A model generated the notes under the pieces. It did not search any database and had not been told where the DNA came from. It worked only from the letters and a program-made list of their open reading frames with translations. A DNA stretch of 64,000 nucleotides from Scytolyngbya sp. HA4215-MV1 (GTDB lineage: Bacteria; Cyanobacteriota; Cyanobacteriia; Leptolyngbyales; Leptolyngbyaceae), in the NCBI GenBank assembly GCA_019359045.1, contig JAHHIA010000012.1, forward strand, positions 1-64,000, in the 5' to 3' direction. A program made the position numbers and the translations under genes. This document shows positions 11,412-37,757 of the stretch, one piece after another (positions within the stretch are counted from its first letter, which is position 1; every line of letters begins with the position of its first letter).

Positions 11412-11481
11412 ATATCCGCCTCCAACTCAAAACTGCTAATTCTCCCCCATCCCACCCTTTCACTCCCCCACTCTATCCCCC

Positions 11482-14400
11482 ATGCACCCTTCCTACAGCT
11501 ACAAAGTTGGTGGTCACCTCTCCCTAGATGCACCCAGCTATGTCGTCCGGCAAGCAGATCACGATCTCTACGAAGGTCTAAAAGCAGGCGAATTGTGTTA
11601 TGTGCTGAACTCGCGACAAATGGGGAAAACCAGTCTGCGAGTACGAACCATGCATCGATTGCAATCTGAAGGGGTGGTTGGTGCCGCGATCGACCTGAAC
11701 AAAATTGGCAGCCAAGAGATTACGGTTGACCAATGGTACGCCGGGATTATGCGGCGATTAGTCACCAGTTGCCACCTCAATCTGGATCTGAAAAGCTGGC
11801 TCAAAGACCGAGAATATCTACCGCCTGTGCAGCGATTTAGCGAGTTTATTGAGCAAGTTTTGCTAGAGTCCGTTAAGGAAAAAATCGTTATCTGCATTGA
11901 TGAAATTGATAGTGTTCTGAGTCTCAACTTTCCGACAGAAGACTTTTTCGCCTTTATTCGCTCCTGTCTGGAATACGATCGCCTCACCTTTGGTCTATTG
12001 GGCGTTGCCACCCCTTCGGATCTGATTCAAGCGAGAAACCGTGCACCGTTTAATATTGGTCGCGCGATCGAGTTAAACGGCTTCCAACGATCGGAAGTAA
12101 AACCGCTGGCGGAGGGACTGGCGACCCAAGCCAGCCAGCCCTGGGCAGTCTTAGAGGCAGTGTTGGACTGGACCGGCGGGCAACCCTTTTTAACCCAAAA
12201 AATCTGCAAAATGATTGCCTCGTCAGAGCAGATCATTCCGGTTGGCAAAGAAGCAGTTTGGGTCGAAGCATTGGTGAGATCGCAGTTGATTGAAACCTGG
12301 GAGGCAACCGATGAACCGCCCCATCTCAAAGCCATTCGCGATCGCTTGGTCAGAATTGGACAACGGGGACGGGGGTTGCTCGATCTCTATCAACAAGTCT
12401 TGCAATCGGGAGAGGTGGACAGTTCCGACAGCCCCGAACAAATTGAACTGCGGCTCACCGGATTAGTCGTCAAACGATCGGGCAAACTGAAATGCTACAA
12501 CCGCATCTATGCGGAGGTATTTAACCAAAGCTGGTTGACCAAAGCCCTCACCGATTTGCAAGCAGACTTCATGCAACTGGTGGTCAGTCAAGAACAACGC
12601 CTGCTCTCGATGCTGAATGTGATGGAAGGGCGAGACTTTGCCGACATTCTGCACGAAATCTTGGGTTCTATTACCATTCGCATGGGCGAGTTGCTCAGTG
12701 TCGATCGCACCACGATCTTCTTTATTGACGAAGAGAAAAATGACATCTGGTCAATCATTGCCCACCACGACAATCACCGCTATCCAGACATTCAAATCAT
12801 TGCCAACAAATCCAGCGATGGACAACTGACCCGCGTACAAAAAATTGCCAACCAATCCTCCTCGGTGCGACATCAGAATTTTGAACGATCGTCCAATTCG
12901 CCCCGAGAAGACAGCGGCTATACCATTTACAACGAATTGATGGTGCCGTTAGCCAATGATCAAAACAAAATTGTAGCCGTCGTGCAACTGGTCAATCGGC
13001 TGCGGCGACATAGTAACCCGGCAGATCCGCTTGCCAAACGCATCAACTCCCAGGGGTTCACCGAATCCCATAAACGACAACTCGAAGAATACGTGCCAGC
13101 AATTTTGCGGATTTTGATGCGTTGTCAGGACTGTTACAAACTTACCCAGCGGTTGCAAGTTTCCGAAGCCCTGGCAGAAGCCACCCGGTCGGTATCTCAG
13201 AGCAGCCTCGACTCCGACGAAATCATCGGGCGAGTGATGGAAGCAGCAAAAAAACTCATGAATGCCGATCGCAGCACCCTCTGGTTACTCGACCACGAAA
13301 CGGAAGAATTGCGCACTCGCATTTTGCGGGAAGACGGGTCCGAACAAGAACTGCGCGTGCCGATGGGGCAAGGGTTTGCGGGCAAGGTTGCCGCAACTCG
13401 CGAACCCTTGAATATTCCTTTTGACCTGTACGACCACCCCGATTCAGAAACCTCGCGCAAAACCGATCAAAAGACGGGTTATCGCACTTGTAGCCTGCTC
13501 TGTATGCCCGTCTGGAGTCCCGATGGAGAATTGCTCGGTGTGACTCAACTGGTAAACAAACGCCGACAGGGCGAATTTCCCGACTACAATCCAGCAGATT
13601 GGCCCCAAGCCCCCGCATGCTTCAAGGCAAGTTTCGATAGCAATAGCCAGAAGTATATGCAAATCTTCAATGCCCAGGTAGGGGTGGCACTGCACAATGC
13701 CCATCAATACGCAGCGGTGAAACGACAGGTGGAAAACAGTCCCCAAAATGTGGTGATGCAAACCCTGTCGATGCTGAATCAGGTGATGGATAATCAAGGC
13801 TTTGACGATATTTTAGACACGACCTTGCGATCGATCACGCTGAAAATTGGCAAATCGCTGAATGCCGATCGCACGACGATCTTTCTATTGGATGAAGAAC
13901 GCAACGAACTCTGGTCAATCATTGCTGAAGCCGAAGGCAGCGATCACAGTCTGGAAATTCGTATCCCTGCCAATAAGGGCATTGTGGGCGAAGTCGCCCA
14001 CACCAAACAAACCATCAACATTCCCTTCGATTTTTATGACGATCCGCGTTCCAGCACCGCTAAAGAACAAGATCGGCAAACGGGATATCGCACTTATACC
14101 ATGATGGCAATGCCCCTCCTCAACCATCAGGGACACCTGATCGCCGTCATCCAACTGCTGAATAAACTGCAACGTGACGCCACCCCGAGCACGCCATTGT
14201 CAGACAAGCTCGATCGGCGTGGGTTCACCCAAAAAGACCAGGAACAATTTGCTGCCAGTGCACCGCTGATTCAAATGATTCTGGAAAGTTTCTGTTCGTA
14301 TCACAAAACAGCGAGAGGACAACGCGTGGCTGCGGCATTGATGGCAGCCACACGATCGGTGTCTCAAAGCAGTCTGGAGCCCGAAGAAATTCTGCTGCGT

Positions 14401-14928
14401 GTGATGGAAGCTGCCAAAGATCTGATGAATGCCGATCGCAGCACCCTCTGGCTGCTCGACCCTGCCACCAACCAACTCTGGACAAAAATTGCCGTGAGCG
14501 ATGGGGTCAAAGAAGTGCGAATCCCCGTTGGCAAAGGCTTTGCCGGTCAGGTTGCCGAAACAGGCGATCCCCTCAACATCCCCTTTGACCTCTACCATCA
14601 CCCCGACTCTGCCATGTCTCGCGCCACCGACGAACAAACCGGCTACCGCACCTGTAGCCTGCTCTGCATGCCCGTTCTGAACCCCGATGGTGAGTTAATC
14701 GGCGTGACTCAGCTCGTCAACAAAAAGTTACCAGGGGAGCACGCCAGTCTCGTTCCTGTTTTTGGTCACCCCATTCCTGATTGCTTCCAAACCAGCTTCG
14801 ACGAAAACGACCAGAAATACATGCAAATTTTCAATAACCAGGCAGGGGTGATTCTGCAAAATGCCCAACTGCTGGCTGCAGTGCGTCGTCAGGAACAATC
14901 TCTACGGGATCATTTGGGCATGGAGTAA
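11482..14928 (+). CDS. AAA_35-type ATPase fused to four GAF domains
   Basis: 1148 residues. The N-terminal third is an AAA_35-type ATPase with Walker [10 protein letters not shown] (K49) and Walker [10 protein letters not shown] (D140-E141), ending near residue 350. Four GAF domains follow at about 375-545, 562-735, 760-940 and 950-1135. GAF1 resembles GAF3 (both include SADRTTIF-type or VDRTTIFF-type starts) and GAF2 resembles GAF4 (both contain TRSVSQSSL and [11 protein letters not shown]), so a GAF pair has been duplicated in tandem. The GAFs carry NIPFDLY and (D/E)QTGYRT patterns seen in cyclic-nucleotide-type GAFs, but ligand cannot be assigned. No phosphatase, cyclase or kinase output domain is fused, so the output is probably through partners: the kinase that starts 22 bp downstream or the TIR-AAA protein upstream. 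Confidence 0.9.
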
Positions 14929-14950
14929 GGCTGTTCCATGGTTGGCGAAG

Positions 14951-17049
14951 ATGTTCAAAAAATTCTGGCTACAACTTAGCCTCACCCAAAGAATCGTGCT
15001 TCCATTTGTGACAGTCTCTCTCGGCATCTTGGTGGTGAGCGTACTAGCTTTAGGATATTGGTTTAACCATAGTTTAGAGCAAAATATGCGGACAGAAGCC
15101 GCAAGTTTTGCTGAACGAGTTCAGCAAGATTTTCAACGCGAACGGCAAGACCTCAGTAATCAGGTTGAGCTGATGACAGCCGAGGATGATTTGTGGGAAG
15201 CAGTTCAACGTCAAGATAAGCCTGTACTAGCGCAAGCTTTAGTGCCCCTTAAAGCCTCGTTGGGCTTGGATTGGGTCAGTGTGGTTAATACAGGAGGAAC
15301 AATTTTACTGGATGCGCGTGAAGATAGGCTGAAGCAAGCTGATTTATTGAATACTGATATTAGTAAAAGCGCGAGTGCTGGAGCTAACTTAACCGATCTT
15401 TTATTAGTACAAGTAGAGAAGTCAGACCAGCCGCAGGCACTCTTTGTTGCCAATTATCCGATTAAGTCAGAGCGTCTAGAGGGAGGGCTGATTGTTGGTC
15501 GGCGCATCAATGATGCGCTGTTGCAAAAGATTGCTGCAGGTTCTTCTAAACAGTTGGTTGCTCTTGTCAACCATCAGGTCATTGCTAAGACGCTGCCCAA
15601 TGGGCAAGATTTGACGTTTCACCCTGCAGCAGCTAATACTCCTGCCATACGAATTGAGGCGGGTGGGCAACCCTACTTTGCCAAAACTCTGGTACTCGAC
15701 GGTTCTCAGGGTGCCTTTTCAATTCTGGTGTTATATCCTGTTACAGCCTTGGAGGCAGCCAAGGCTGCACTATGGTTGCGGTTAGGAGCCTTGCTATTGC
15801 TGGGTGGCACGATTGTCAGTCGTGTCGGATTTTCTATTGGTAGAACGATCGCCCGTCCCATTCGCAACTTGACCTTGATGACTCAACAACTGGCACAGGG
15901 AAACCTCACCGCTCGCATTCCGGTCATGGGCAAAGATGAAGTCGCACAACTGAGCGCAGCCTTTAACCAAATGGCAGATCAATTGGCAGAACGCGGATTG
16001 CTCAGCCAACATATCCAGCAATTACAGCAAACGCTCGGTGATTTGGAGAAAAATCAAGAGCAGTTGATTCATGCCGAAAAAATGTCATCGTTGGGGCAAT
16101 TAGTAGCAGGTGTTGCCCACGAAATTAACACCCCCTTAGGGGTTATTCAGGCTTCTATTGGTAACATCACGAGTGCCTTAGAGCAAACCTTAAAAGAATT
16201 GCCACCCCTGCTGCAAACCCTACCGCCTGAGCAACTCTCTGAATTCTTCATGCTGCTCGATTGGGCATGCCAACCACAAGCCATGCTCTCTTCGCGAGAA
16301 GAACGCCAATTAAAACGGAACATCGAGCAAACCCTAGCAGATCAGGGCTTAACCCAGGCTGATGCGTTGGCAGATAGGCTCAGCAAAATGGGGATTACAG
16401 CTGCCCTCGACCCCATCCTGCCCTTACTAGAATCAGCGGATGCCCTTTTAATGCTTAAAACAGCCTATCCATTATCAATAGTACAAAACAACAGTCAGAA
16501 TATTCGATTAGCGATCGAGCAAGCTTCAAGAATTGTCCATGCGCTCAAAAACTATGTTCGACAAGATGTGTTTGGCGTACCCATTTATGCGTCGGTAACC
16601 GAGGGCATTGATACGGTTTTGACCATCTACCAAAACCAAATTAAACGGGGTATTGAAGTCGAAAAACAATATGCGTCTCTGCCTCAGATTCTTTGCTATC
16701 CCGAAGAACTAGTTCAGGTTTGGTCTAATCTGATTAGCAACGCCATTCAAGCCATGAGCTATCAAGGGAATCTGACGATCGTCGCCTCAGAAAAAGACCA
16801 GTCCATCGTTGTACAAATCACAGACACCGGAAGTGGGATTTCCCCCGACATCAAAGCCAGGATTTTTAAACCCTTCTTTACGACCAAGGCAATGGTGAGG
16901 GCACTGGACTAGGACTGAGTATTGTCAAAAATATTATTGAGAAACACCACGGCAGAATTGAAGTAAAAAGTGAGCCAGGACATACAGAGTTCAAGGTGTG
17001 GCTACCTTTTGATATTTCTTCATTAGAAGTTGAAAGAAAGAATGGGTAA
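14951..17049 (+). pseudogene. Sensor histidine kinase with a single-base frameshift
   Basis: A two-helix membrane sensor kinase: TM1 near VTVSLGILVVSVLALGYWF, an extracytoplasmic sensor of about 250 residues, TM2 near LRLGALLLLGGTIV, a HAMP-like linker, and HisKA with phosphoacceptor VAHEINTPLG. The ATPase domain has the N box (NLISNAIQAMS), DTGSGI and FKPFFTTK. The frame then ends at 16912 in place of the G2 box. One base earlier in phase, sequence to 17049 continues as [16 protein letters not shown] and a normal kinase tail. The text ATGGTGAGGGC at about 16892 should read ATGGGTGAGGGC: one G is missing from a G-run. It is either a real inactivating deletion, a slippage site, or a sequencing error. 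The ATG at 14951 matches a typical kinase N-terminus; an upstream frame from 14861 overlaps the previous gene. Confidence 0.85.
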
Positions 17050-17393
17050 TCAGTGTATGCCAGTTTTTTAGGTATTATGCGATCGTTTCATTGGCGGAAA
17101 AGATGCCCACAAAATCAACCTTAATCCTACGCAGAAATAGAATTCTTTGAGGAAAGTGGAAGCCTGACTGAAATGTTTGGATCAGTTTTTAACGTTTTTC
17201 ACAGATTCCTTTATTTTTTGGTACGTTATAGAGATTTATTCATGAGGGGTATCACGTCAATGTTGTTTTCAATCAGCAAGGGGGCATTGAAGGGAAGATG
17301 ATTGTGGGAGTGAAGGGAGCGTAGTCTAAAAAAACTCTTCATTAAGATAAATTAGCCGCTGATCCAGTTTGGAAGATTACCAATCAAAGGTTT
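17050..17393. other. Intergenic region between kinase and receiver gene
   Basis: 344 bp without a clear gene. A short coding-like stretch near 17240-17325 (with NQQGGIEGKMIVGVKGA) ends in TAG and lacks a start, so it may be a remnant. The gap probably holds a promoter for the receiver gene at 17394. Confidence 0.3.
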
Positions 17394-17807
17394 ATGGGTG
17401 TATCGAATAAAGCAATCTTATGTGTAGATGACGAGCGGACTGTTTTGCTGAGCCTACGAGACCAGATCGCCAAGCATTTTGGCGATCGCTACCGTTATGA
17501 AATTGCCGAAAGTGCAGATGAAGCTTGGGAGGTCATCGAAGAACTAGATCATCATGGCGTTCAGATTCTCATAATCGTCTCAGATTGGTTGATGCCCGGT
17601 ATCCGCGGAGACGAGTTTCTAATTCAAATTCATCAACGCTTTCCCCATATCGTTACGGTATTACTCACCGGACATGCCGATGAAACCGCGATCGAACGGG
17701 TACGTCAATCTGCCAATCTACATGCCTATATTGCAAAACCTTGGAGTGAAAAAACACTCATTGATGTAATCAGATCAGGTCTTCAGACATTAGATGATGG
17801 ATCTTAG
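17394..17807 (+). CDS. CheY-like single-domain response regulator
   Basis: 137 residues forming one receiver domain. The acidic pair DDE sits near residue 11, the phosphoacceptor is D64 in VSDWLMPG, and the switch threonine and lysine are visible in VLLTGHAD and AKPW. No output domain, so it likely passes phosphate or binds a partner. It ends 11 bp before a hybrid kinase whose first receiver has a similar LTG and KPW pattern, so the two are almost surely co-transcribed. The cognate kinase may be the frameshifted one upstream. AAAGG lies just before the ATG. Confidence 0.9.
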
Positions 17808-17818
17808 GAAATTGGGCA

Positions 17819-19531
17819 ATGAAAATAGCGATCGTCTGTGTGGATGATGAACAACTCATATTACGAAGTCTGCGAGATCAATTGCGCCAACTTCTGGGTG
17901 ATGGCTACATCATCGCCTTAGCCGAGAGTGGCGAAGAAGCCTTGAGTGTACTGGCAGATCTAGAAAAATCGCAAATCCCAGTACCCGTTGTGATTTGCGA
18001 CCAAATGATGCCCAAGCTCTCTGGCGATCGAGTACTCAGCCAAATCCACGCACTCTATCCCCAGATCCGAACGGTGCTCCTAACTGGCTTAGCACAATTA
18101 GACAACATCATCCACGCAGTCAACCATGCCAACTTATATCGCTATCTTTCTAAGCCCTGGAATGCAATTGATCTGGAATTAACTGTGCGAGAGGCAGTTC
18201 GCAGTTATTTCCAAGACCAGCAACTCATACGCCAGAACCTAGCCCTTTGTAAGGCGAATCAGGAATTGGAAGCCCTCAACAACAACCTCGAACAGCAAGT
18301 CGAGCAACGGACAGCAGAGCTACAACAGCAAGCCGCAACTCTGCGCTCCAGCAAAGAAGCCGCAGAAGTTGCAAATCATGCCAAAAGCGAGTTTCTCGCC
18401 AACATGAGTCACGAAATTCGCACCCCAATGCATGCAGTCCTGGGATATAGCGAATTGTTGGATATGACGAATCTGGATACGCAACAAAGAGAGTATGTGC
18501 AGCGTATTACGAATAATGGCAAAGCATTACTAGCAATTATCAACGACATTTTGGATCTGTCGAAACTAGAAGCTGGAAAGCTCGAACTTGATGCGAGTGA
18601 GTTTGACCTGCAAGAAATCATCCAAAGTCTTACTTGGATATTTCAGCCCCAGGCAACTGCAAAAGGGTTAGCCTTGACCACAGTGATCGCCCCCGATATT
18701 CCTCAACAGCTCTTTGGACCAGCCCAACGTCTACGCCAGGTGTTGACTAACCTGCTAAACAATGCGATTAAGTTCACAAGGTCTGGGCAAGTTGTTCTTA
18801 GGATTGAGAGACAAACGCCATCTGAGGAAGCAGCTCAGATAATCCTCTGTTTTAGCGTTCAAGACACCGGCATTGGGATTGCGCCAACAGATCAAGAACG
18901 CATCTTTAGTCCGTTTACCCAAGTGGACACATCCTCGACCCGACATTACGAAGGGACTGGCTTGGGGCTGACCATCTGCCGGAAAATTATTCAGATCATG
19001 CATGGGGAGATGGGGGTCGAAAGTTCTCCTGACAAGGGTTCTACCTTTTGGTTTACGATCGCACTCCAACAACCCCAGGTGCCAACAGCAGAACCGCCCA
19101 CTTTAGTGGCAGCCCACTCAACTACCACAGTTGCCTCAACGGAGGTTGAACCGCCCCCTCGCATCTTGGTAGTCGAAGATATTGAGTCAAATCAACAGTT
19201 GCTTATTCAAATGCTCAAACATCTGGGCTATCCGGCTGAAGTCGTGAGTAACGGTCAGGAGGCGCTGATCCAATTGGCTGAACACCCTTATGACATCGTA
19301 TTGATGGATTGCCAGATGCCAGTTTTGGATGGTTATGAAACGACTCGGCGACTGCGGCAGTCTGAGGATGAACAACACCGAACAATTATCATTGGTCTAA
19401 CTGCTCATGCGATGTTGGGCGATCGCGAAAAATGCTTGGAAGTGGGTATGGACGATTACCTGAGCAAACCCATTAATTTCCAAACTTTAAGCACCCTGCT
19501 AGAACACTGGTCAGCCCGGCTTAGAACTTGA
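17819..19531 (+). CDS. REC - histidine kinase - REC hybrid
   Basis: 570 residues. REC1 spans about 1-125 with phosphoacceptor D61 in VVICDQMMP; a coiled coil covers 135-175; HisKA holds H198 in NMSHEIRTP; the ATPase domain shows the N box (LLNNAIKFT), DTGIGI and [11 protein letters not shown]2 covers about 448-565 with D497 in [14 protein letters not shown]. There is no membrane helix, so input comes through REC1, probably from an upstream kinase in the same block. No HPt domain is fused, so a separate HPt would be needed for onward transfer. AGGA precedes the ATG by about nine bases. Confidence 0.93.
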
Positions 19532-23496: not shown

Positions 23497-26400
23497 ATGC
23501 TCACAGCATCCCTGCCTTCTGACGAACCTGCCAGACTCAAAGCACTCTACCAGTGCAATATTCTGGATACGCCACCTGAGAGTGATTTTGACAGTATTAC
23601 TCGGCTAGCTGCTTACATTTGCGATGCTCCGATCGCCCTGATCAGCCTAATTGATGAAGATCGGCAATGGTTCAAATCTAGGGTAGGTCTCGATGTGAAC
23701 GAGACTCCCCGCGATCTAGCATTTTGCGCCCATGCCATCTTACACACTGATCTTTTCATCGTTTACGACACTCTAGAAGACGAACGGTTCGCAGACAACC
23801 CCTTAGTCACCGGGCATCCTTATATTCGTTCCTATGTGGGAGCCCCCCTGATCACCTCCGAAGGCTACATTCTGGGTACACTTTGCGTCATCGATCTACA
23901 ACCGCGCCACTTGACCAGTCTGCAATTGGAAGCCCTCCAGACCCTAGCCCAGCAAGTTGCCAAACAATTGGAACTGCGTCGTGACCTGAGCAAGCTGGAA
24001 CACAAGCTAGTTCGACGTAGAGCTCCTAAGACTCAGCACAGTTCATTTTTAACGCGGGTCGCCCTTTCTTTAGGAGCTGTCTCCGCTTTATTAATGACTG
24101 TGGGCATTGCCTTCTATCAGACCAACCAGAGCATGGTGCTGCAAACGAATGAGATCGTGAGTCAACAAGCCTTGATCGAAAAGGTTGCCACTCTGCGTAC
24201 CTATCTCAATCGGGCTGAAATCAGCCAGTACAGTTATGTGCTTTCAGGAGATCCGGAAGAACTCAAGGCTTACTACACTGCAATTGAAACAACCCAGCAT
24301 ACGCTACAAAATCTACGCCAACTCTCCCAACAATATCTTAGCAATCGCAAAAGTGGCGCCACATCCAATGATTGGATGACGTCCCAGCAAATTACGGAGA
24401 AACCTGTTTACGATCTCAAGAGACTCGCAACTCTTGAGAAAATGATCACAGCCCAAGTGGGTCTGATGCCAGACATCGTGCAGTTGCGGCAAGAGCGCGG
24501 CTCAGAAGCGGCTTCGCGACGGCTTAACCAGGCTGATGTTCGCCGAGACTCGATCGATTTATTAAAAGAACTCGATCAGTTGGAAAAACCCCAAACTCGT
24601 TCGTTTGAGGATCTTCTACAGGATACCCGGCAAGATGCCCGCACCACAGTCATGACCTCCATTGGAGGAATCGGGCTAACAGGCGCGATTTTATGGTTCA
24701 TTTTCTATTTAATTTATTTAGAAAACAAAAAGCGTCACCAAGTTGAAAGTGTCTTGGAACAAGAGCGCGATTTTTCGACTGCGATCGTCAATACTGCAGG
24801 GGCATTAGTGGTGGTCATGGACCCCCAAGGTAGAATTGTGCGCTTTAACCAGGAGGCTGAGCGCGTCAGTGGCTATGCATTTGCAGAAGTGCGCGGTAAG
24901 GCTGTTTGGGATATTTTACTCTTACCTGAAGATAAAAAAATTGTCCAAGCCACTTTCCTGAAGCTGGAAACGAAGCAAGGGTTTAGTAGTAACGAAAACT
25001 ACTGGGTCACTAAAAAAGGCGACTTGCACCTGATCTCTTGGTCTAATCGGATCATTCATGATTCAGAGGGCGATGTTGAATACATTATTGGACTCGGCAT
25101 TGACATTACTGAGCACAAACGGGCGGAAGCATCGCTCAGAGCCAGTGAAGAACAGTTTCGAGCAATTAGCGATGCCTCTCCCCTCGGTGTTTTTGTAACG
25201 AATGCCCAAGGCGATTGCCAATATACCAATCGCCTCTATCAGAAGATCACCGATCTTTCTCTGCAAGATTGCTTGGGACAAGGTTGGAGTACCGCAATTC
25301 ATCCTGAAGATCGCGATCGGATCATGCAAACATGGTACGAATCAGCCCAAAATCAGAAGTCCTTCCAAAGTGTGCTACGGTTTCTGCATCAAGATGGTGC
25401 CGTAGTCTGGGCGAGTGTCAAAACCGCCGAAATGCGAGATGGAGAAAGACTTTTGGGTTATGTCGGCACCGTAGAAGATATCACGGAGCAAGTCCGAGCA
25501 GAGCAGCGGCGCAATGCCCAGTATGCGATTACGAATGTACTGGCAGAATCGGCAACCTTACACGAGGCAACCTCAAAGATTTTGCAATCGCTGTGCGAAA
25601 GCCTGGAATGGGATGTGGGTCAGGTATGGAATGTCGATGCTCCAGCTGGCTTGATGCGATTTGTTGCCACCTGGCACAATTCCTCTCTTAATTTAGACCA
25701 ATTTGAAGCATCGGCACAGGCATTGGTGTTTGCTCCTGGCGAAGGGATGGTGGGTCGAGTTTGGGCTTCTCGACAACCGCTCTGGGTACATGATCTGCAG
25801 AATGATACCAATTTTGTGCAAAGCTCGGCTGCGATCGAAGCAGGGTTTCAACAGGCTTGTGGGTTCCCCATCTTGGGCAATAGCGGCATTTTGGGTGTGA
25901 TTTCGGCGTTTAGTCGGCATTCCCAAAATTTTGATGATGATCTGCTAGAAATGATGATTGCGATCGGTCAGCAGATTGGTCAGTTTATCGATCGTAAACA
26001 AGCCGAAGAAGAAGTCCAGCGGCAAACGGTGCGATCGCAGCTATTGGCTGACATCACCCTTCGCATTCGCCAATCCTTGGAACTGGAAGAAATCTTGCAA
26101 ACAGCAGTGACCGAAGTTCGCAACTTTCTTTATGCCGATCGTGTCCTCATTTATCGCTTTAAGCCAGACTGGAGCGGCACAGTTGTCGTGGAATCGGTAG
26201 AAGCATCACGGAGTGCTTTGCTTGGCTCCGACATTCGTGACATTTGCTTCATTGAAAATTGCCGAGCACTATATCAACAAGGACGCATCCGGGCGATCGA
26301 TGATGTGGAACAATCTGATCTTTCTGATTGTCACAAAAAAATGCTGACACAGTTTCAGGTTCAAGCAAACCTGGTGGTTCCGCTCTTAGAAAGTGAAGAA

Positions 26401-28686
26401 TTATGGGGGCTGCTCATCGCGCATCAATGCTCCCATACTCGCCACTGGCAAAAATTTGAAACCAGTTTCCTGAGTTTACTCGCCAACCAGGTGGGCATTG
26501 CCTTATCCCAGTCTCGCTTACTCAGCCAAGAAATTAAGCAGCGCCAACAACTCGCCCAACAAAATCAGGCCCTCAAAGAATCGCGTGCCGCCGCAGAACA
26601 TGCCCGCAAAGCCGCTATCCAGGCTCGTCGAACCGCAGAACAGGCAACTGAAATGAAGAGTGCCTTTCTTGCCACCATGAGCCATGAAATTCGCACCCCG
26701 ATGAATGCTGTCATTGGAATGGCAGGATTGCTGCTGAATACCAACCTTGATCCCCAACAACACGACTTTACTGAAACCATTCGGAGTAGTGGAGATAGCC
26801 TACTCACTCTGATTAACGAAATTTTGGATTTTTCCAAGTTGGAAGCAAAAGAAGTCAATCTTGAAGTGTTGGATTTTAACCTCAGCCTTTGCCTGGAAGA
26901 AATCACAGAATTGCTAGCAGTGCCAGCCCACAATAAGCATTTGAACCTCTCTAGCTTGATTCACCCCAGTGTGCCCACGTTGCTGCGAGGAGATTTCAGC
27001 CGTTTACGTCAGGTTTTGACGAATCTGGTGGGCAATGCGGTCAAATTTACCTCGATCGGGGAAGTAGTCATTGAGGTATCTCTCCAGTCACAGACTCTAA
27101 CCCATGCCACCATTTTGTTTTCTGTGACCGATACCGGGATTGGCATTGCACCTGACGTGCAACATAAACTGTTTCAGCCGTTTACTCAAATGGATGCTTC
27201 TACCACGCGCAAGTATGGTGGCACGGGGCTGGGGCTGGCGATTTGTAAGCAGTTGGTTGAGTTAATGGGGGGTGAAATTGGGTTGCAAAGCTTTCCTGGC
27301 AAAGGATCGAGTTTCCGGTTCACGATTCCCTTTGAAAAACAAGTATCCTCACTGGAGGTTCCTGCACTTGTTCCTCTTGCCTCTCCACTGATTGGCTGCA
27401 AGCTATTGATTGTCGATAGTAATGCCACCAGTCGGCAAGCAATTCGCTATCAAACTGTAACCTGGGATGTATCGATCGATGAAACGGATGATGCCGAAGT
27501 TGCTCTAGAGATGTTGCGATCTCAAGCAAGGCAAGGCAAGCCCTACGACATCGCCATCTTAGATCGACAACTCCCCGAAATTAATGGGCAATTTTTGAGT
27601 CAGCAGATCCGGACTGATCCTATATTAGCCAAGACACGTCTGGTAATTTTGGCGACCTTGAACCAGCAAATGACCACGCATCGCCTAGAGGCTTTAGGAG
27701 CGTCGGCATTTTTGATGAAGCCCATTAAACAATCTCGTCTATTCGATTGCCTGGCAAGTGTGATGAGTCATGAATCAAGCCAAAATCCGTCTAAACTGGT
27801 ACATACTTCCAGTAGTAAAGTGACGAAACCGCCCTTGCTAGAGCCTGCCGATGCGTCCAAAATCAAGATTTTGTTGGTGGACGATAGTCCAGTCAACCAA
27901 AAATTAGCGATTAATCAACTGAAACACTTGGGGTACAAGGCAGATATCGCAGCCAATGGTAGAGAAGTTTTGGATTTAGTTGCCAAGATTGACTACGACA
28001 TCATTCTAATGGACTGCCAAATGCCAGTAATGGATGGCTATGATGCAACGCGGTTCATTCGCCAAGCGGAAGTCGGTTCCCGACACACGATCGTGATTGC
28101 AATGACAGCGAATGCGATGAAAGAAGATCGCGATCGTTGTCTGGCAGCAGGTATGGATGATTACCTAAGCAAACCTGTACGGATTGAGGAACTTGCCGAA
28201 AAACTGGCAACTTGGAGCGAACTTATCTTGCGGCTAGCAACGAATCAGTCGGCGAAAAACGAAGCTGAAGACCTGATAAAACCTTATTTGGGAGAAGCAA
28301 CTGTGTCCCATGATGCTGAGCAGAACCAGACTACCCAGAATTTACAAATTAACTGGGATCACCTTCACCAACTGTCTGGGCACAATGAGGCGTTTGAGTG
28401 GGAAATCCTAAATTCTTTAGTGGAGTCAATGCCTCAGCGCTTAGAAAAGCTAGAGGATATGGTTAAGTTAAAAGATTTTCCTAACATTGAGTTGGAAGCC
28501 CACTCGATCAAGGGGGCTTGTGCATGTGCCGGAGCGACTATTTTGGGAGATCTGTCAGCCCAGGTAGAACAAGCCGCTTTAGCTCAGCAGGGCGAAGCGA
28601 TCGAGGAGCTAATGACGAACTTGAGCAAAAACTTTCAAGTTTTTCAGGATCTGGTCAACCAACACTCTCAATCACTGTCTTTATAG
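23497..28686 (+). CDS. Hybrid sensor kinase with candidate DXCF cyanobacteriochrome GAF, REC-REC-HPt
   Basis: 1729 residues. In order: GAF (25-165), TM (183-208), CHASE3-like extracytoplasmic domain (about 210-370), TM (388-410), two PAS (425-545, 548-670), GAF (675-835), GAF (845-1010), HisKA with H1063 in MSHEIRTP, ATPase ([23 protein letters not shown]), receiver 1 with D1356, receiver 2 with D1506 in [13 protein letters not shown], and HPt with H1669 in EAHSIKGAC. The third GAF has DICF (C917) and, 28 residues later, DCH (C945). This is the spacing of the two chromophore-linked cysteines in DXCF cyanobacteriochromes such as TePixJ. It also has [15 protein letters not shown] and WGLLIAHQ, all typical. 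It is therefore a candidate blue-light/green sensor with a full internal phosphorelay. No clear ribosome-binding site precedes the ATG. Confidence 0.9.
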
Positions 28687-30361: not shown

Positions 30362-33300
30362 TCACCCATCATCACTTTGATCTTCGCCTAAATCAACGGG
30401 CAATAACCGTTGGAGGGGATGAGATTGCATCAGTTGCGCTATCTCAGATGCTTTTTGCATGAGATCCAGTTCACGGTAGAGGTGCAGACTGGTGGTTAAG
30501 AATTGGCATGCCGTTGTGACTAAACCGGAGTCTTGCCGATCGGCGCGAACCAGGTAAATCTCGCCTAACAGATGGTGAGCTTCTGCTGCTTGCTTGTGGC
30601 GGTTGAAAGTCTGGAAGGTTTGCAAGGACTGACGGGTGAGGGTTTCGGCTTGATCGAGATTTTCCAGAGAACGGATTTCGAGATAGGCGCGGGCAATCTC
30701 CAGGGCGGCTTCGGCACGATCGACGACCTTTCCCAGATCAGTGAAGTAGGCAAACCCAGCGGTGTAAAGTTGCTCAAATTGAGTGGTCAAGGCAGTGGCA
30801 TCACCCAACTGCCACCGCAGAGATTCTGCGGTTAGTAGGGCAAGAGAAATCTGATCGTAAGCCAGATTTTCGCGGTAGTTGCCTGCGGAGTCGAGTTGCA
30901 ATGCCTGTTGTAAGTGCTGATCTGCCTGCTGGAGCAGCGCAACCGCTTGTTCCGATTCACTGTCTTGTGCCTTGAGTCGCTGGGTGTTGCTAAGTTGCCG
31001 CCACCGCCTTGCAGCGCTTTCGTTATGACCCAGTTCCTGGTGTTTTTTCAAGCTGTTTTGATAGAGATCGATCGCCGAGGTGTAATCTTTTGCCTGACGG
31101 TAGCAATCAGCTAAATAGGATAGTTGATTTGCTACGTCTTGTTGTAAGTCCAAAGTTTCATAGAGATCGCGACTTTGTTCGTAGTGGACGATCGCTTCTG
31201 CATACTTGCCCCAGGCTTGATAAATGCGTCCGAATTGATAATAGGACAAAGCAATATCCGTCTGAAGGTCTAGTTTCTGACAAAGTTCCAAATCTTTCTG
31301 CTCACACTCAAGGGCTTGCTGATATTTGCCCCACTCTCGATAGCACTCCGCCAGATTGTACCAACGATAGGAAACTTCCTTCTCTTTGCCCAACTGCTGA
31401 TACAGGTCGCGGCTCTGTTCGTACTGGGCGATCGCTTCTGCATACTTGCCCCAGGCTTGATAGATTCGTCCTAATTGGTAGTAAGTGACAGCAATCAATG
31501 ACGGATCATCTATTGTTTGACGAATCTCCAAGCATTTTTGTCGGTATTCCAATGCTTTAGGATATTTACCCCAGTCTTTATAGCAATCTGACAGCCAGTA
31601 CCACAGGTTTGCAACATCTTTTTCCTGCTCAAGCGGTTGATATAGGTCGCGACTTTGTTCGTAGTAGGCAATCGCTTCTGCATACTTGCCCCAGGCTTGA
31701 TAAATGCGTCCGAATTGATAATAGGACAAAGCAATATCCGTCTGAAGGTCTAGTTTCTGAAAAAGTTCCAAATCTTTCTGCTCACACTCAAGGGCTTGCT
31801 GATATTTGCCCCACTCTCGATAGCACTCCGCCAGATTGTACCAACGATAGGAAACTTCCTTCTCTTTGCCCAACTGCTGAAACAGGTCGCGGCTCTGTTC
31901 GTACTGGGCGATCGCTTCTGCATACTTGCCCCAGTCTTGATAGATTCGTCCCAATTGCCAGTATGTGACAGCAATCAATAACGGATCATCAACTGTTTGA
32001 CGAATCTCTAAGCATTTTTCTTGGCATTCCAAGGCTTCAGGATACTTACCCCAGTCTTTATAGCAATCTGCCAGGTTGTACCAGCGAGTTGCAACTTCTT
32101 TTTCCTGCTCAAGCTGCTGATAGCGATCACGGCTTTGTTCGTAATGGGCGATCGCCTCCACATATTTACCCCAGGCTTGATAGATGTATCCCAATCGCCG
32201 GTAGGCATTGGCAATATTGGACTTTTCATCAAGCTTCTGGCGAATTGCCAACTCCTGCTGCACGGCACTCAAGGCTTCACGATACTTGCCCCACTCACGG
32301 TAGCAATCTGACAACCAAGACCACAGAGCAGCAACGTCTTTTTCCTGCTCAAGCGGTTGATACAGGTCGCGGCTTTGTTCGTAGTGAGTGATCGCTTCTG
32401 CATACTTGCCCCAGTCTTGATAAATCCGTCCCAATTGCCAGTATGTGACAGCAATCAATAACGGATCACCAACTGTTTGACGAATCTCCAAGCATTTTTG
32501 TTGGCATTCTAAGGCTTCAGGATACTTACCCCAGTCTTTATAGCAATCTGCCAGGTTGTACCAGCGAGTTGCAACTTCTTTTTCCTGCTCAAGCTGCTGA
32601 TAGCGATCACGGCTCTGTTCGTAGTGGGCGATCGCCTCCGCATACTTACCCCAGGCTTGATAGATGTATCCCAATTGCCGGTAGGCATTGGCAATATCGG
32701 ACTTTTCATCAAGCTTCTGGCGAATCGCTAAATCCTCCTGCACGGCTCTCAAGGCTTGTTCATACTTGCCCCACTCACGGTAGCAATCTGACAACCAAGA
32801 CCACTGGTTTGCCACATTAGTTTCTTTCTCAAGCTTTTGATACAGGTTACGGCTCTGTTCGTAGTGGGAGATCGCTGCTGCATACTTGCCCCAGGCTTGA
32901 TAGATCCGTCCCAATCGCCAATAGGCACTGGCAATATTGGACTTGTCATCAAGCTTCTGGCGAATTGCTAACTCCTGGCGCTCGGCACTCAAGGCTTGCT
33001 TATACTTGCCCCACTCGCGGTAGCAATCTGACAGCCAGTACCACTGGTTCGCAACATTCGTTTCCTTCTCAAGCTGTTGATACAGGTCGCGGCTTTGTTC
33101 GTAGTGGGCGATCGCTGCTGCATACTTACCCCAGACTTGATAGATCCGTCCCAATCGCCAGTAGGCAAGGGCAATATTGGACTTGTCATCAAGCTTCTGG
33201 CGAATCGCTAAATCCTGCTGCTCGGCACTCAAGGCTGGCTCATACTTGCCCCACTCACGGTAGCAATCTGACAGCCAGTTCCACAGATCTGCCACATTAG

Positions 33301-36300
33301 TTTCCCTCTCAAGCTGTTGATACAGGTCGCGGCTTTGTTCGTAGTGGACGATCGCTGCTGCATACTTACCCCAGGCTTGATAACTTTTACCGATGCTGTG
33401 AATGATATCAGCTTCCGCTTTTGGGTGATTCAGTTGCTTGGAAATTGCAAGCGCCTGCTGTAAATATTCCAAAGATTGCTCATATTGCTGATGGAAGCGA
33501 TGACAAATTCCCCAATCCCACAAGAAAAATAATTCCGTATCGCTGGTGGTCGATCTCAGCTTCTCGGAGCACTGTTGATAGTAGTGCAACCCCTGGTCAT
33601 AGTTTTCCTTTTTCTCATAGGCAATCGCGATCGCCCACTGAACATAACTCTCGAAATAGCAATCCACTTGTTCTGTGAGGGGTTGTAGCTGGGCGATGGC
33701 GCGATCGTAGTGGTCCGCTCTCAGGTAAGAAACCCCGATCATAAACTCCAATGCCTTATGGTGTTCCAGATCCAGGTTTGCATCCGCTAGCGATCGCGCT
33801 AAAGCAGGGGTCATCTCTGCCCCTAATTTGGCAACCAAGTTGCAAATTTCCTTAAACAATGCAGGCGTGAGTTGATGAACAATTGAGATTACTTGATCGA
33901 CGAGGGGTTCTCCTGCCTCGCCACAAGCTATATACAACATCGCCGCCCAGGCTCGATTGTGTAGCTCTTCCGATAGAGTTTCGTTCGCGATCGCCCGCTG
34001 CAACGGCTCCAGCACATCGTGGTTAAATAACTCAATCCGGCGGAGCAATTTCAACAAATACTGAGTGGAATCCTCTTCAAAATCAGTATCCAGACACAGG
34101 TAAGTGATTACCAATTTTTCGATCAGTTGCTTGCGGAAATTGGCATTCACCTTCACCTCAGCCAACACCTGCCCTGCAAACAGTAAATCCTTAAAGACTG
34201 CGGCAGATTCTTGCAGTTGCAGGTCAGGCGGCGATCCCGTTTGCCAAACCAAAATTGGCTGATTCGATTGCGGTTGTTTCAAGCGTATTTCGCGACCGAC
34301 GATCGGTTGATAGGCATCCAAATCGCAAAACAACTGCTGCATCAGCCGGTTCACCCGATTTGCATTGGCACTGAGATAACCCAATGCCAATAAAATTGGC
34401 TCATTCCAACGTGCCTGATCGCGATAGGGGCTAATGATGGCGAGAATGTCAGCGATTTCATTGTCGGCAATGTGACGAGCGGCAAAATATTCTTCAAAGG
34501 TCAGGTGCATAAACCCATAGGATGCCGGTGCCCGCTCTACGAACAGTCCCGTCACTTCCCTCACCTTGCGTAAAAATTGCTGCACCAAAATTTGGGCAGT
34601 TTCAATGTCCACCCCTTGTAACTCCGCCATCCGAGGGGTTAACGCCACTTCGGCTTCAGCTTGAGTAATGAGTCCAGAGGGTTTGTGCTCATGCATCCAA
34701 AAGGCGAGCGGTGCCAGCAGCGCGATCACATCTTCCTCTGCCAGCATCAATTGGGTTTTTCTGGCGTTGTAAGCAATATTTCGGGCAAATTGCCAGTCTT
34801 CAATCAGGGTTTTGGTTGCCAAGTCATATAGTTCCACCCGACGCTGAGGCAAACGCACCCCATTGCGCTGAATCAGCGCCAAAATTGTCAACAGCAGGGG
34901 ATTGGTAGCAAAACGCTTGACCCCTGGCTGTTCGGCAATAGCTTGAACAATTCCCTGGGCTTCCTGTTTTGCATCCCGCTCCCGCAGGGTCGGACTGATT
35001 TCTGGGCGCAGCGTCGCTTCAACTGCCAAACACCAGCGTTCCAAAAATTTCTCAATCTGGTCGCTTTCCATCTCTCGAATGGTGAATTCCTGAAAGCGAT
35101 CGCCCAAAGAGGCTTCCTGGTATCCCGCAATCCGACTGGTGATCACAAAGCGGTTGTTTGAGTATCTGCCCACAAACTGCTCAATTTGCCGCACCACCTG
35201 GCTACGACTGACCGCATCAAACACCTCATCCAACCCATCCAGCAGCACTAAACATTCTCCCTGCCTCATCTTTTCCAGGAGCCATTCTGCGACCGAATCT
35301 CCCAACAGACCTTCAAAATAGTGATCCCACTGGCGATAAAACCGCCGCAGGTAATGCTCTAAGCTCAGGTCTGCACCCCGATCTTGCTGCTGTTTCAGCT
35401 TTTCAGCATAGTCTGCAATCCGGAACAAAATGGGCAGTTTTGCTTCACCCAGGCTTTCTCCCCATGCCCCACCCTGTACCGTCGGGTGGTTGTCCCGTTT
35501 AGCCAGGGCATGATGCCGCGCTAGATACCGCAACAGCGTGGTTTTGCCTGCGCCTGGATCGCCCAAAATCACACAATGGGAATGTTTCTGCACTGCCTCT
35601 GCCAGATCCAGGTTGACTATCCGGCGAGTGGGAGAACCGTCGAACCCATCATTCCTGCTCACATCCAGCATGAAATCTTCTGGTTCCGGTTCCCCCCCAT
35701 CCAGTTGTTCCAACCCCTGAGTGCTGGTTTCCCTGGAGGGAGATCGCAGTCCCTGACCACTACTGCTGCGATAAGCATTCATTGCCCGCCCACCCAGCTC
35801 TGACTGAGTTAGCTCCTCGACCCATGATCCTTGCAGCGACACGTAGATCTGATCTAGAAAAATATCGACCTGCCGTTGGACCTGCCTCACGCCACCAATT
35901 TTGAGGCGAGAGTTTTCAGCAATCAGCCATTCCAAATAGGGATAGAAGATGGGGTCGAATGGGGGACGCGTTTCAAACTGCGCCACCCTGCCACGCCAAT
36001 CCCAAAAATCGGGTGCCTGACGACGGAATTCATCCAGAAAACTTGATTGACTGAGCCAGAAGATGAGGATCAGATTTTGTTGAAAGATTTCTTCCCGCCC
36101 CAAATTGAGTTGCTTCATTTCCCGCCCAAAGCGGGCAGCATCTGCCAACTTCAATGACTCTAGACCCAATGCCATCACAACCCGACGACCCTGGCTTGGC
36201 GATGCTTCCAGCCGCTGCAAATAGTCATACAGGGTGTCATCACTGTAGTAAAACAGCGGCTCGATCCGAAATCGCTCCTCCAACGTTGCCAACTGAGCGT

Positions 36301-36460
36301 GCAGGCACTGAAGCACAGGATGGTTGGGGCTAATTTCAGGCGCGATCGCAAAAATGGTCACCGTGCGATCGCTCAATTCCAGTACATCCATCAACTGGTT
36401 CAATGCTTGCTGATCGTGTTGAGTGATCGGATTTTCCGTTTTTCCAGATTCAGTTTGCAT
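30362..36460 (-). CDS. NACHT NTPase with about 20 TPR repeats
   Basis: 2032 residues. Residues 1-235 form an N-terminal domain with LILIFWLSQ and APDFWDWRG, a pattern I associate with degenerate NTPase-like domains in front of STAND proteins. The NACHT ATPase has Walker A GDPGAGKTTLL (K306) and Walker B LVLLDGLDEV (D408), followed by the helical region with FMHLTFEEYFAARHI, a signature of the NACHT winged-helix/superstructure. A helical repeat part spans about 700-950. From about 1010 to 1790 lie ten 80-residue units, each of two TPRs, with motifs WGKYAEAIAHYEQSRD and DCYREWGKYxxAL. No effector domain is obvious, so effector function may lie in the N-terminal domain or the partner. The ATG is 4 bp after the stop of the upstream ATPase gene, implying translational coupling. 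By analogy with NACHT and Avs proteins it may sense an invader protein; that is inference. Confidence 0.9.
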   Translation of the reverse strand: MQTESGKTENPITQHDQQALNQLMDVLELSDRTVTIFAIAPEISPNHPVLQCLHAQLATLEERFRIEPLFYYSDDTLYDYLQRLEASPSQGRRVVMALGLESLKLADAARFGREMKQLNLGREEIFQQNLILIFWLSQSSFLDEFRRQAPDFWDWRGRVAQFETRPPFDPIFYPYLEWLIAENSRLKIGGVRQVQRQVDIFLDQIYVSLQGSWVEELTQSELGGRAMNAYRSSSGQGLRSPSRETSTQGLEQLDGGEPEPEDFMLDVSRNDGFDGSPTRRIVNLDLAEAVQKHSHCVILGDPGAGKTTLLRYLARHHALAKRDNHPTVQGGAWGESLGEAKLPILFRIADYAEKLKQQQDRGADLSLEHYLRRFYRQWDHYFEGLLGDSVAEWLLEKMRQGECLVLLDGLDEVFDAVSRSQVVRQIEQFVGRYSNNRFVITSRIAGYQEASLGDRFQEFTIREMESDQIEKFLERWCLAVEATLRPEISPTLRERDAKQEAQGIVQAIAEQPGVKRFATNPLLLTILALIQRNGVRLPQRRVELYDLATKTLIEDWQFARNIAYNARKTQLMLAEEDVIALLAPLAFWMHEHKPSGLITQAEAEVALTPRMAELQGVDIETAQILVQQFLRKVREVTGLFVERAPASYGFMHLTFEEYFAARHIADNEIADILAIISPYRDQARWNEPILLALGYLSANANRVNRLMQQLFCDLDAYQPIVGREIRLKQPQSNQPILVWQTGSPPDLQLQESAAVFKDLLFAGQVLAEVKVNANFRKQLIEKLVITYLCLDTDFEEDSTQYLLKLLRRIELFNHDVLEPLQRAIANETLSEELHNRAWAAMLYIACGEAGEPLVDQVISIVHQLTPALFKEICNLVAKLGAEMTPALARSLADANLDLEHHKALEFMIGVSYLRADHYDRAIAQLQPLTEQVDCYFESYVQWAIAIAYEKKENYDQGLHYYQQCSEKLRSTTSDTELFFLWDWGICHRFHQQYEQSLEYLQQALAISKQLNHPKAEADIIHSIGKSYQAWGKYAAAIVHYEQSRDLYQQLERETNVADLWNWLSDCYREWGKYEPALSAEQQDLAIRQKLDDKSNIALAYWRLGRIYQVWGKYAAAIAHYEQSRDLYQQLEKETNVANQWYWLSDCYREWGKYKQALSAERQELAIRQKLDDKSNIASAYWRLGRIYQAWGKYAAAISHYEQSRNLYQKLEKETNVANQWSWLSDCYREWGKYEQALRAVQEDLAIRQKLDEKSDIANAYRQLGYIYQAWGKYAEAIAHYEQSRDRYQQLEQEKEVATRWYNLADCYKDWGKYPEALECQQKCLEIRQTVGDPLLIAVTYWQLGRIYQDWGKYAEAITHYEQSRDLYQPLEQEKDVAALWSWLSDCYREWGKYREALSAVQQELAIRQKLDEKSNIANAYRRLGYIYQAWGKYVEAIAHYEQSRDRYQQLEQEKEVATRWYNLADCYKDWGKYPEALECQEKCLEIRQTVDDPLLIAVTYWQLGRIYQDWGKYAEAIAQYEQSRDLFQQLGKEKEVSYRWYNLAECYREWGKYQQALECEQKDLELFQKLDLQTDIALSYYQFGRIYQAWGKYAEAIAYYEQSRDLYQPLEQEKDVANLWYWLSDCYKDWGKYPKALEYRQKCLEIRQTIDDPSLIAVTYYQLGRIYQAWGKYAEAIAQYEQSRDLYQQLGKEKEVSYRWYNLAECYREWGKYQQALECEQKDLELCQKLDLQTDIALSYYQFGRIYQAWGKYAEAIVHYEQSRDLYETLDLQQDVANQLSYLADCYRQAKDYTSAIDLYQNSLKKHQELGHNESAARRWRQLSNTQRLKAQDSESEQAVALLQQADQHLQQALQLDSAGNYRENLAYDQISLALLTAESLRWQLGDATALTTQFEQLYTAGFAYFTDLGKVVDRAEAALEIARAYLEIRSLENLDQAETLTRQSLQTFQTFNRHKQAAEAHHLLGEIYLVRADRQDSGLVTTACQFLTTSLHLYRELDLMQKASEIAQLMQSHPLQRLLPVDLGEDQSDDG
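31140..33420 (-). repeat. Ten tandem 240-bp TPR-coding repeats with 480-bp superrepeats
   Basis: The segment CATACTTGCCCCAGGCTTGA or close variants recurs at 31201, 31441, 31681, 31921, 32161, 32401, 32641, 32881, 33121 and 33361, an exact 240-bp period. Some blocks are almost identical at twice that distance: about 31200-31400 matches 31680-31880, and 32041-32100 matches 32521-32580. This implies recent duplication of double units or gene conversion. Confidence 0.95.
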
Positions 36461-36464
36461 GATT

Positions 36465-37757
36465 CTATGTCAGCGGCGTTTGCCAGAGCGCGACATCTTC
36501 TGCAATTAATGGATTGACATCAAACCAGGGTTTTCCTGTCGAGGCATCCCGATAGCCTAATGCTAATTTATTCAACAGCATTTCATCGCAGATCTCCATT
36601 TCTTCCCGATCTGTCAGCGACTTCACCCCACTCGTGAGTCGTCCAGTTTGTCGGATAGCTGCCAGACGGGGAAAATGATATTCATGCAAATTGAACCGCG
36701 AGCCTCGTTCTTTGCGAATTGCAGCCTCAGAGGTGGGCAAATCCACAATAGTAAGTTTATTCTGCTTGGCAAGGATGCAAGCCTCATAACACAACCGGAT
36801 TAAATCTCGCATCACCCCACCACTTTTCTCGCAGAGCAAGCCCAGTGCATCGGGTTGAAACAGATCTTTGTAGCGATCGTCCAACCTTTGTAATCGCTTT
36901 TGAATCACCTCTGTCAGAAGCGATCGTCCATTGTCATCTGCTTCAGAGGTTGGGCAACCGTTCGGATTACAGCGAAACACCGGAATATTGACCAAATCCA
37001 GGCAGGTGAACCGTTCCTTGGGCTGGCTAAAGTTTGTGGAATAGCGCAGCGAAATGGGAATGGTGTAAACAATATGACAATCGAGTTTGGTTAACAGCTC
37101 ATCTGAAAACATGCGTAATGCAGTTTCCTGATCGTGGCGATCTAAGCCATCCACAATCATCAACAGCTTACGCCCCAAATTATTTTCTGCCGCTTTAATA
37201 ATATCGTTTACGCTGGCAATGACATTCTCCAGATTGGGACGAATGTCCACCTTGGTGGTGATTTCCTTACTTAATCCGCCCTTCAGAGTTAATCCCCACT
37301 TCTGCAAAATTTCTGGTACGCTAAACCCCTCTTGAGTGATTTGCTTATCTTCTCTCACAACGGTCATCAGGCTTTGCTCTAGACCTTCTAATAAATTGCC
37401 CTCAATGCCCCATTCATCCTGGAACACCTTGCTATGGATTTCTAGCCCAATCAAGACGATGATCTCGGCATAACCGATATTGTATTGACTCAGCGATGTG
37501 GCTGTATCAATCCAGAAAACTTTGTAATCCTTTAGTGTTTGCTCTAGCTTTCGTAATTCCGTTGTCTTGCCACTGCCAATGTGCCCTGCCAGTAAAAAAC
37601 TGATGGCTGCACTTGCCATCTCCAAACGACTACTCAAATCCTCAATTGGACTATTCATCCGCTGCACATATAAGTGTTCTAGCTCTTCGCTGGTTTGCAG
37701 AGGTGCTTGAACCTCAAAATATTGACAGACAGGTTTCCAAAAGCTGATGTCACTCAT
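36465..37757 (-). CDS. P-loop ATPase paired with the NACHT-TPR protein
   Basis: 430 residues with Walker A AGHIGSGKTTEL (K64) and Walker B LLMIVDGLDRHD. The layout (a compact P-loop core, ORC/AAA_16-like helical lid, then a helical C-terminus) fits AAA or STAND-type ATPases that act as switches. The Cys pair in RCNPNGC does not form an obvious zinc site. Its stop is 4 bp before the start of the NACHT-TPR gene, so the two are a single operon and are likely to form one complex. It is not similar enough to a named family for me to give a name. Confidence 0.85.
   Translation of the reverse strand: MSDISFWKPVCQYFEVQAPLQTSEELEHLYVQRMNSPIEDLSSRLEMASAAISFLLAGHIGSGKTTELRKLEQTLKDYKVFWIDTATSLSQYNIGYAEIIVLIGLEIHSKVFQDEWGIEGNLLEGLEQSLMTVVREDKQITQEGFSVPEILQKWGLTLKGGLSKEITTKVDIRPNLENVIASVNDIIKAAENNLGRKLLMIVDGLDRHDQETALRMFSDELLTKLDCHIVYTIPISLRYSTNFSQPKERFTCLDLVNIPVFRCNPNGCPTSEADDNGRSLLTEVIQKRLQRLDDRYKDLFQPDALGLLCEKSGGVMRDLIRLCYEACILAKQNKLTIVDLPTSEAAIRKERGSRFNLHEYHFPRLAAIRQTGRLTSGVKSLTDREEMEICDEMLLNKLALGYRDASTGKPWFDVNPLIAEDVALWQTPLT

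Follow-up and report, generated by a model that had tools for sequence, protein, structure and literature searches.

Introduction

A known counterpart of the predicted light-sensing domain described here is the GAF domain of TePixJ. In this protein, C522 binds ring A of the bilin at C3-1, and a further cysteine, C494, binds C10, breaking the conjugation and giving a blue-absorbing dark state; the side chain of W499 forms a hydrogen bond with the propionate of ring B (PMC6955287). DXCF domains are typically blue/green (PMC11284453), and the photoproducts of the family span teal to orange (PMC5240096; PMC6628166). In AM1_1186g2, the second cysteine is located in α-3 (PMC6628166).

We analyzed a 1729-residue membrane hybrid histidine kinase encoded in a 64-kb stretch of DNA, referred to in its full length as the window. 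We estimate a probability of roughly 0.87 that this protein is a DXCF cyanobacteriochrome hybrid histidine kinase that absorbs blue light in the dark and operates through the photocycle and phosphorelay proposed below. Its sequence marks it as a sound but ordinary addition to the DXCF family, not as a novel sensor type, and other cyanobacteria encode kinases built alike.

Domain organization of the kinase

Pfam places eleven domains in the open reading frame, in the order GAF, CHASE3, PAS, PAS, GAF, GAF, HisKA, HATPase_c, two Response_reg and Hpt. The features, in nucleotide positions of the window, are:

23497–28686, + strand: membrane hybrid histidine kinase, 1729 amino acids, carrying the DXCF cyanobacteriochrome GAF
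23497–24006, + strand: N-terminal GAF, residues ~1–170, lacking the DXCF/CH signature (Pfam)
24058–24114, + strand: predicted transmembrane helix 1, residues 188–206 (hydropathy)
24145–24606, + strand: CHASE3, residues 217–370, predicted periplasmic (Pfam PF05227)
24649–24714, + strand: predicted transmembrane helix 2, residues 385–406 (hydropathy)
24781–25113, + strand: PAS 1, residues 429–539 (Pfam)
25150–25482, + strand: PAS 2, residues 552–662 (Pfam)
25552–25992, + strand: GAF 2, residues 686–832, lacking the DXCF/CH signature (Pfam)
26080–26505, + strand: cyanobacteriochrome GAF, residues 862–1003 (Pfam, PDB sequence matches, AlphaFold2 model, Foldseek, tree)
26239–26250, + strand: DICF motif, residues 915–918, with the second cysteine C917 at 26245–26247 (aligned with TePixJ D492–F495)
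26260–26262, + strand: extra cysteine C922, at the position of TePixJ W499 (alignment)
26329–26334, + strand: canonical bilin cysteine C945 (26329–26331) and H946 (aligned with TePixJ C522–H523)
26653–26847, + strand: HisKA, residues 1053–1117, phosphoacceptor H1063 within HEIRTP (Pfam, motif)
26989–27336, + strand: HATPase_c, residues 1165–1280 (Pfam)
27385–27771, + strand: receiver 1, residues ~1297–1425, D1356 (Pfam)
27868–28206, + strand: receiver 2, residues 1458–1570, D1506, canonical acidic pair (Pfam)
28402–28617, + strand: HPt, residues 1636–1707, H1669 within HSIKG (Pfam, motif)

CHASE3 scores 32.4 bits against a Pfam cut-off of 28 and is flanked by one hydropathy-predicted membrane helix on each side. 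The N-terminal GAF shares 54–63% identity with its counterparts in most relatives of the same architecture. The C-terminal half has a HisKA-HATPase-REC-HPt layout with the H, D and H residues intact (H1063, D1356, D1506, H1669), and the acidic pair of receiver 1 is D-S (VDS), not D-D. A BarA model matches this half with a score below the model's cut-off, so the kinase is BarA-like and not BarA. The initial annotation had named the CHASE3 input, both receivers and the HPt of this hybrid kinase, and Pfam recovers each of them; it missed the N-terminal GAF, both PAS domains and the GAF at residues 686–832. The DXCF-type GAF that it pointed out is present as described, with the correction that its start, given as 26033, falls off a codon boundary.

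The genes flanking the kinase encode a PMT_2 glycosyltransferase and a cation-efflux protein, which rules out a cognate response regulator adjoining the kinase gene. Kinase-domain cross-matches aside, the window neighbors tested had no match near the relatives in genomes G004 and G056 or near the paralog L003; with no shared neighbors, gene context gives no function. Promoter and terminator scans returned fewer sites than in shuffled sequences. Elsewhere in the window, positions 1782–5882 and 9495–14928 encode a TIR-WD40 protein (1366 amino acids), a TIR-AAA_35 protein (638 amino acids) and an AAA_35 protein with three GAFs (1148 amino acids). These TIR/AAA_35 genes lie just upstream of a CHASE4-HAMP histidine kinase, a receiver and a hybrid kinase (14861–19531). 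On the minus strand, positions 30362–37757 hold a 2032-residue NACHT/STAND NTPase with a long TPR array, immediately followed by a KAP-type P-loop NTPase (36465–37757).

The predicted bilin-binding site

The translated reading frame, 1729 residues long as first annotated, bears out the sequence elements that had drawn attention to this domain: DICF with C917, YQQGR (residues 926–930) and DCH with C945, 28 residues beyond C917. Residues 953–962 read [10 protein letters not shown]. A six-frame translation of the window contains the pattern D-x-C-F-(26)-C-H a single time, and 200,000 shuffles of the GAF domain never produced it. Together with conservation at the exact columns in relatives, the shuffles rule out a chance motif; as evidence for the motif, we regard this column conservation as stronger than the shuffle test. 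The pocket residues D915, F918, H946, N958 and H976 are kept along with both cysteines.

Aligned with TePixJ, the cyanobacteriochrome GAF is identical at 60 of 159 positions (38%), with no gap between C494 and C522. Specifically, TePixJ D492, C494, F495, R507, D513, C522, H523, N535 and H553 are all identical in the query.

Fold and phylogeny of the cyanobacteriochrome GAF

A PDB sequence search returned cyanobacteriochrome GAFs and their engineered derivatives as best matches, followed by phytochromes; the top match is 6oap, a dual-sensor histidine kinase (2.4e-49). An AlphaFold2 model of the domain, built from 11 related domains, has a mean pLDDT of 90.2 and a pTM of 0.87, and a Foldseek search with this predicted structure placed 6oap, miRFP670nano, TePixJ and AnPixJ near the top. 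VIA-align scores are tied at ~24–25 among bilin GAFs, bacteriophytochromes included, so the subfamilies are not separable by fold alone. A cyanobacterial phytochrome is rejected on domain content: Pfam finds no PHY domain, and the GAF is followed by HisKA.

The top GAF match in each of 58 related genomes shares 48–62% identity with the query, and identity to DXCF relatives is 57–64%. In a tree of 115 GAF domains, computed by a quick method without bootstrap, the query falls in a 23-row DXCF clade (SH-aLRT 97) nested in a 34-row group (SH-aLRT 96) that contains the TePixJ subclade. The XRG red/green group (SH-aLRT 99) is separate from the query's clade. The query is thus not an XRG cyanobacteriochrome, since it has DICF, no Trp two residues before the Asp and a separate clade; tree and motif likewise rule out an XRG domain that regained DXCF.

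Among the 22 clade relatives, D915 and C945 are invariant (22/22), and C917 and F918 are kept in 21 and 20, respectively. Position 946 is His in 19 relatives and Tyr in three. Position 938, occupied by F515 in TePixJ, is acidic (D or E) in 17 of the 22. The query departs from the clade consensus at three conserved sites (W905 to R, G921 to N and W923 to R), and its spectra or stability could therefore be atypical.

Bilin supply and the GAF repertoire of the genome

The genome encodes one ferredoxin-dependent bilin reductase; this protein scores 341 bits with the NCBIfam PcyA model, above the cut-off of 206, and lies far under the PebA and PebB cut-offs. Two heme oxygenase-family genes are present (Pfam); with PcyA, they indicate that phycocyanobilin should be made.

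A search of the query's own genome found 47 GAF matches. By eye in the alignment, D-x-C-F is paired with C-H or C-Y in ten domains, the query included, and five further domains have D-x-C-[LIM]; by these motifs, the query is one of many DXCF sensors in a genome rich in them. Two other own-genome domains are worth noting. L013 (G000:C15:454715-455230) has DTCF and reads DRH at the canonical site, i.e., it carries the second cysteine without the canonical one. L022 (G000:C16:21288-21704), a possible stand-alone cyanobacteriochrome, is a 185-residue reading frame with little besides a divergent GAF that carries DDCF and PCH.

Kinases of the same layout

The arrangement GAF-CHASE3-PAS-PAS-GAF-GAF-HisKA-HATPase-REC-REC-HPt recurs in at least six genomes from three families, as judged by Pfam for G004, G028, G284 and G236 and by alignment coverage for G218 and G159; the architecture is therefore not unique. 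PAS 2 is only weakly alike in G004, G236, G218 and G159, and these four kinases keep DXCF and CH/CY. Over its full length, the query is ~49% identical to the G004 kinase. Genome G050 encodes the same chain without the cyanobacteriochrome GAF; the sensor is thus a module that can be detached from the chain.

In a tree built from the non-cyanobacteriochrome modules, the kinases nearest to the query by path are those of G284, G032 and G028. These three form one clade (100/100) from a single other genus, and the fork placing the query relative to them is unsupported. All three have lost both bilin cysteines: the DXCF/CH positions read RVWH/NSF in G284 (L125, G284:C64), SAYF/QWH in G032 (L122, G032:C3) and EAAF/LWY in G028 (L124, G028:C76). 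They are apparently light-blind versions of the query kinase with its other modules kept, and the G032 protein also lacks CHASE3. Double-loss kinases this near to the query weigh against our main reading, since this kinase type can evidently do without light sensing. That both cysteines were lost repeatedly does not follow, as three kinases in one clade and one genus attest at least one event and do not prove several; G135 has a second, partial loss (TPCF/ETQ). This multi-domain kinase exists with the pair of bilin cysteines and, within a single genus, without it, and so provides natural pairs for the question of light input, namely what light adds to a kinase that takes further inputs through CHASE3, PAS and GAF domains.

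Proposed mechanism and alternative readings

Bilin binding, phycoviolobilin formation, the photocycle, the direction of kinase control and the order of the phosphorelay are all predicted. Heme would be converted to phycocyanobilin by heme oxygenase and PcyA, and the bilin would attach to C945 through ring A. By analogy with the family (PMC11284453), phycocyanobilin is expected to isomerize to phycoviolobilin. In the 15Z dark state, C917 would add to C10 and shorten the conjugated system, so that the domain would absorb blue. Blue light would then isomerize C15=C16 and break the C917–C10 bond, yielding a longer-wavelength 15E form that may revert through the light it absorbs or in darkness. The C-terminal helix of the GAF would relay the change to HisKA, with phosphate predicted to pass from H1063 to D1356/D1506, then to H1669 and on to a response regulator. 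CHASE3 between the two membrane helices, the two PAS domains and the two other GAFs would supply further inputs.

Sequence does not fix the color of the photoproduct, which may be green or anything from teal to orange. Because DXCF photoproducts have this range, blue/green is the most likely reading and not the sole one. In calling the protein a blue/green sensor, the first annotation got the DXCF type right, as cysteines, pocket, fold, phylogeny and bilin genes agree, and was too specific about green. A DXCF domain that is not blue/green, in which phycocyanobilin is kept or the D-ring twisted to give a blue/teal, blue/yellow or blue/orange cycle, is a serious possibility that we place short of even odds. 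It is a sub-case of the DXCF hybrid kinase explanation, so the two confidences overlap. Beyond the breadth of the family's photoproducts, it draws on the separation of the query's clade from the TePixJ subclade and on the acidic residue that this clade favors where TePixJ has F515. Against it, H946 stands beside the canonical cysteine as in phycoviolobilin-forming TePixJ, the query GAF has no insertion, and blue/green is what typical DXCF members are.

More radical departures appear improbable. The domain could be a degenerate GAF that has lost bilin binding or photoconversion and persists as a structural relic in the kinase, as the loss of both cysteines in same-layout kinases of another genus and of three clade-conserved residues in the query might suggest; retention of both cysteines and the five pocket residues, and the 57–64% identity to DXCF relatives, make this very unlikely. 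We also hold it very unlikely that the query is a three-cysteine variant whose third cysteine, C922, sits next to the B-ring propionate, contends with C917 for the bilin and thereby changes the photocycle. C922 aligns with the propionate-bonding W499 of TePixJ, and in a related domain from Cyanomargarita (L034:6001-6516), which reads DSFF and lacks the DXCF cysteine, a cysteine stands as many residues from the Asp as C922 does. L030, L015 and L080, like L034, have comparable cysteines five or six residues past the DXCF site. The α-3 cysteine of AM1_1186g2 offers a precedent (PMC6628166); by the residue numbers given there, C922 is probably at a different position from that cysteine (C2510). 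A cysteine at this site is rare, found in none of the other 22 clade members, and is not conserved in same-layout kinases. A stronger form is likewise very unlikely: C922 would take part in the chromophore chemistry, the photocycle would depart from the known blue/green ones, and the kinase lineage would elsewhere have shed both bilin cysteines and become light-blind. We treat C922, noted from the alignment, as a lead and not a finding.

Comparison with known sensors

The query GAF shares its fold and canonical cysteine with XRG (red/green) domains such as AnPixJg2 and NpR6012g4 (3W2Z, 6BHN), which differ in carrying a WxDxxL motif that is not in the query and in belonging to a separate clade. 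The closest solved sequence and best Foldseek match is the GAF of 6OAP, 6OAQ and 6OB8, from the PPHK dual-sensor histidine kinase. This domain is 49% identical to the query and, like it, is a bilin GAF feeding a histidine kinase; it has DQYF in place of DXCF, and thus the second cysteine is absent there. The blue/green DXCF GAF of TePixJ (PDB 4FOF, 4GLQ, 3VV4, 6P58) has the same DXCF and CH cysteines, the same 28-residue spacing and the same pocket residues, and its fold superimposes on the query model with a TM score of 0.72–0.80 by query length. The two differ at TePixJ W482, H498, W499 and F515, which are R, N, C and E in the query, and in their output: TePixJ is a methyl-accepting chemotaxis protein, whereas the query is a histidine kinase.
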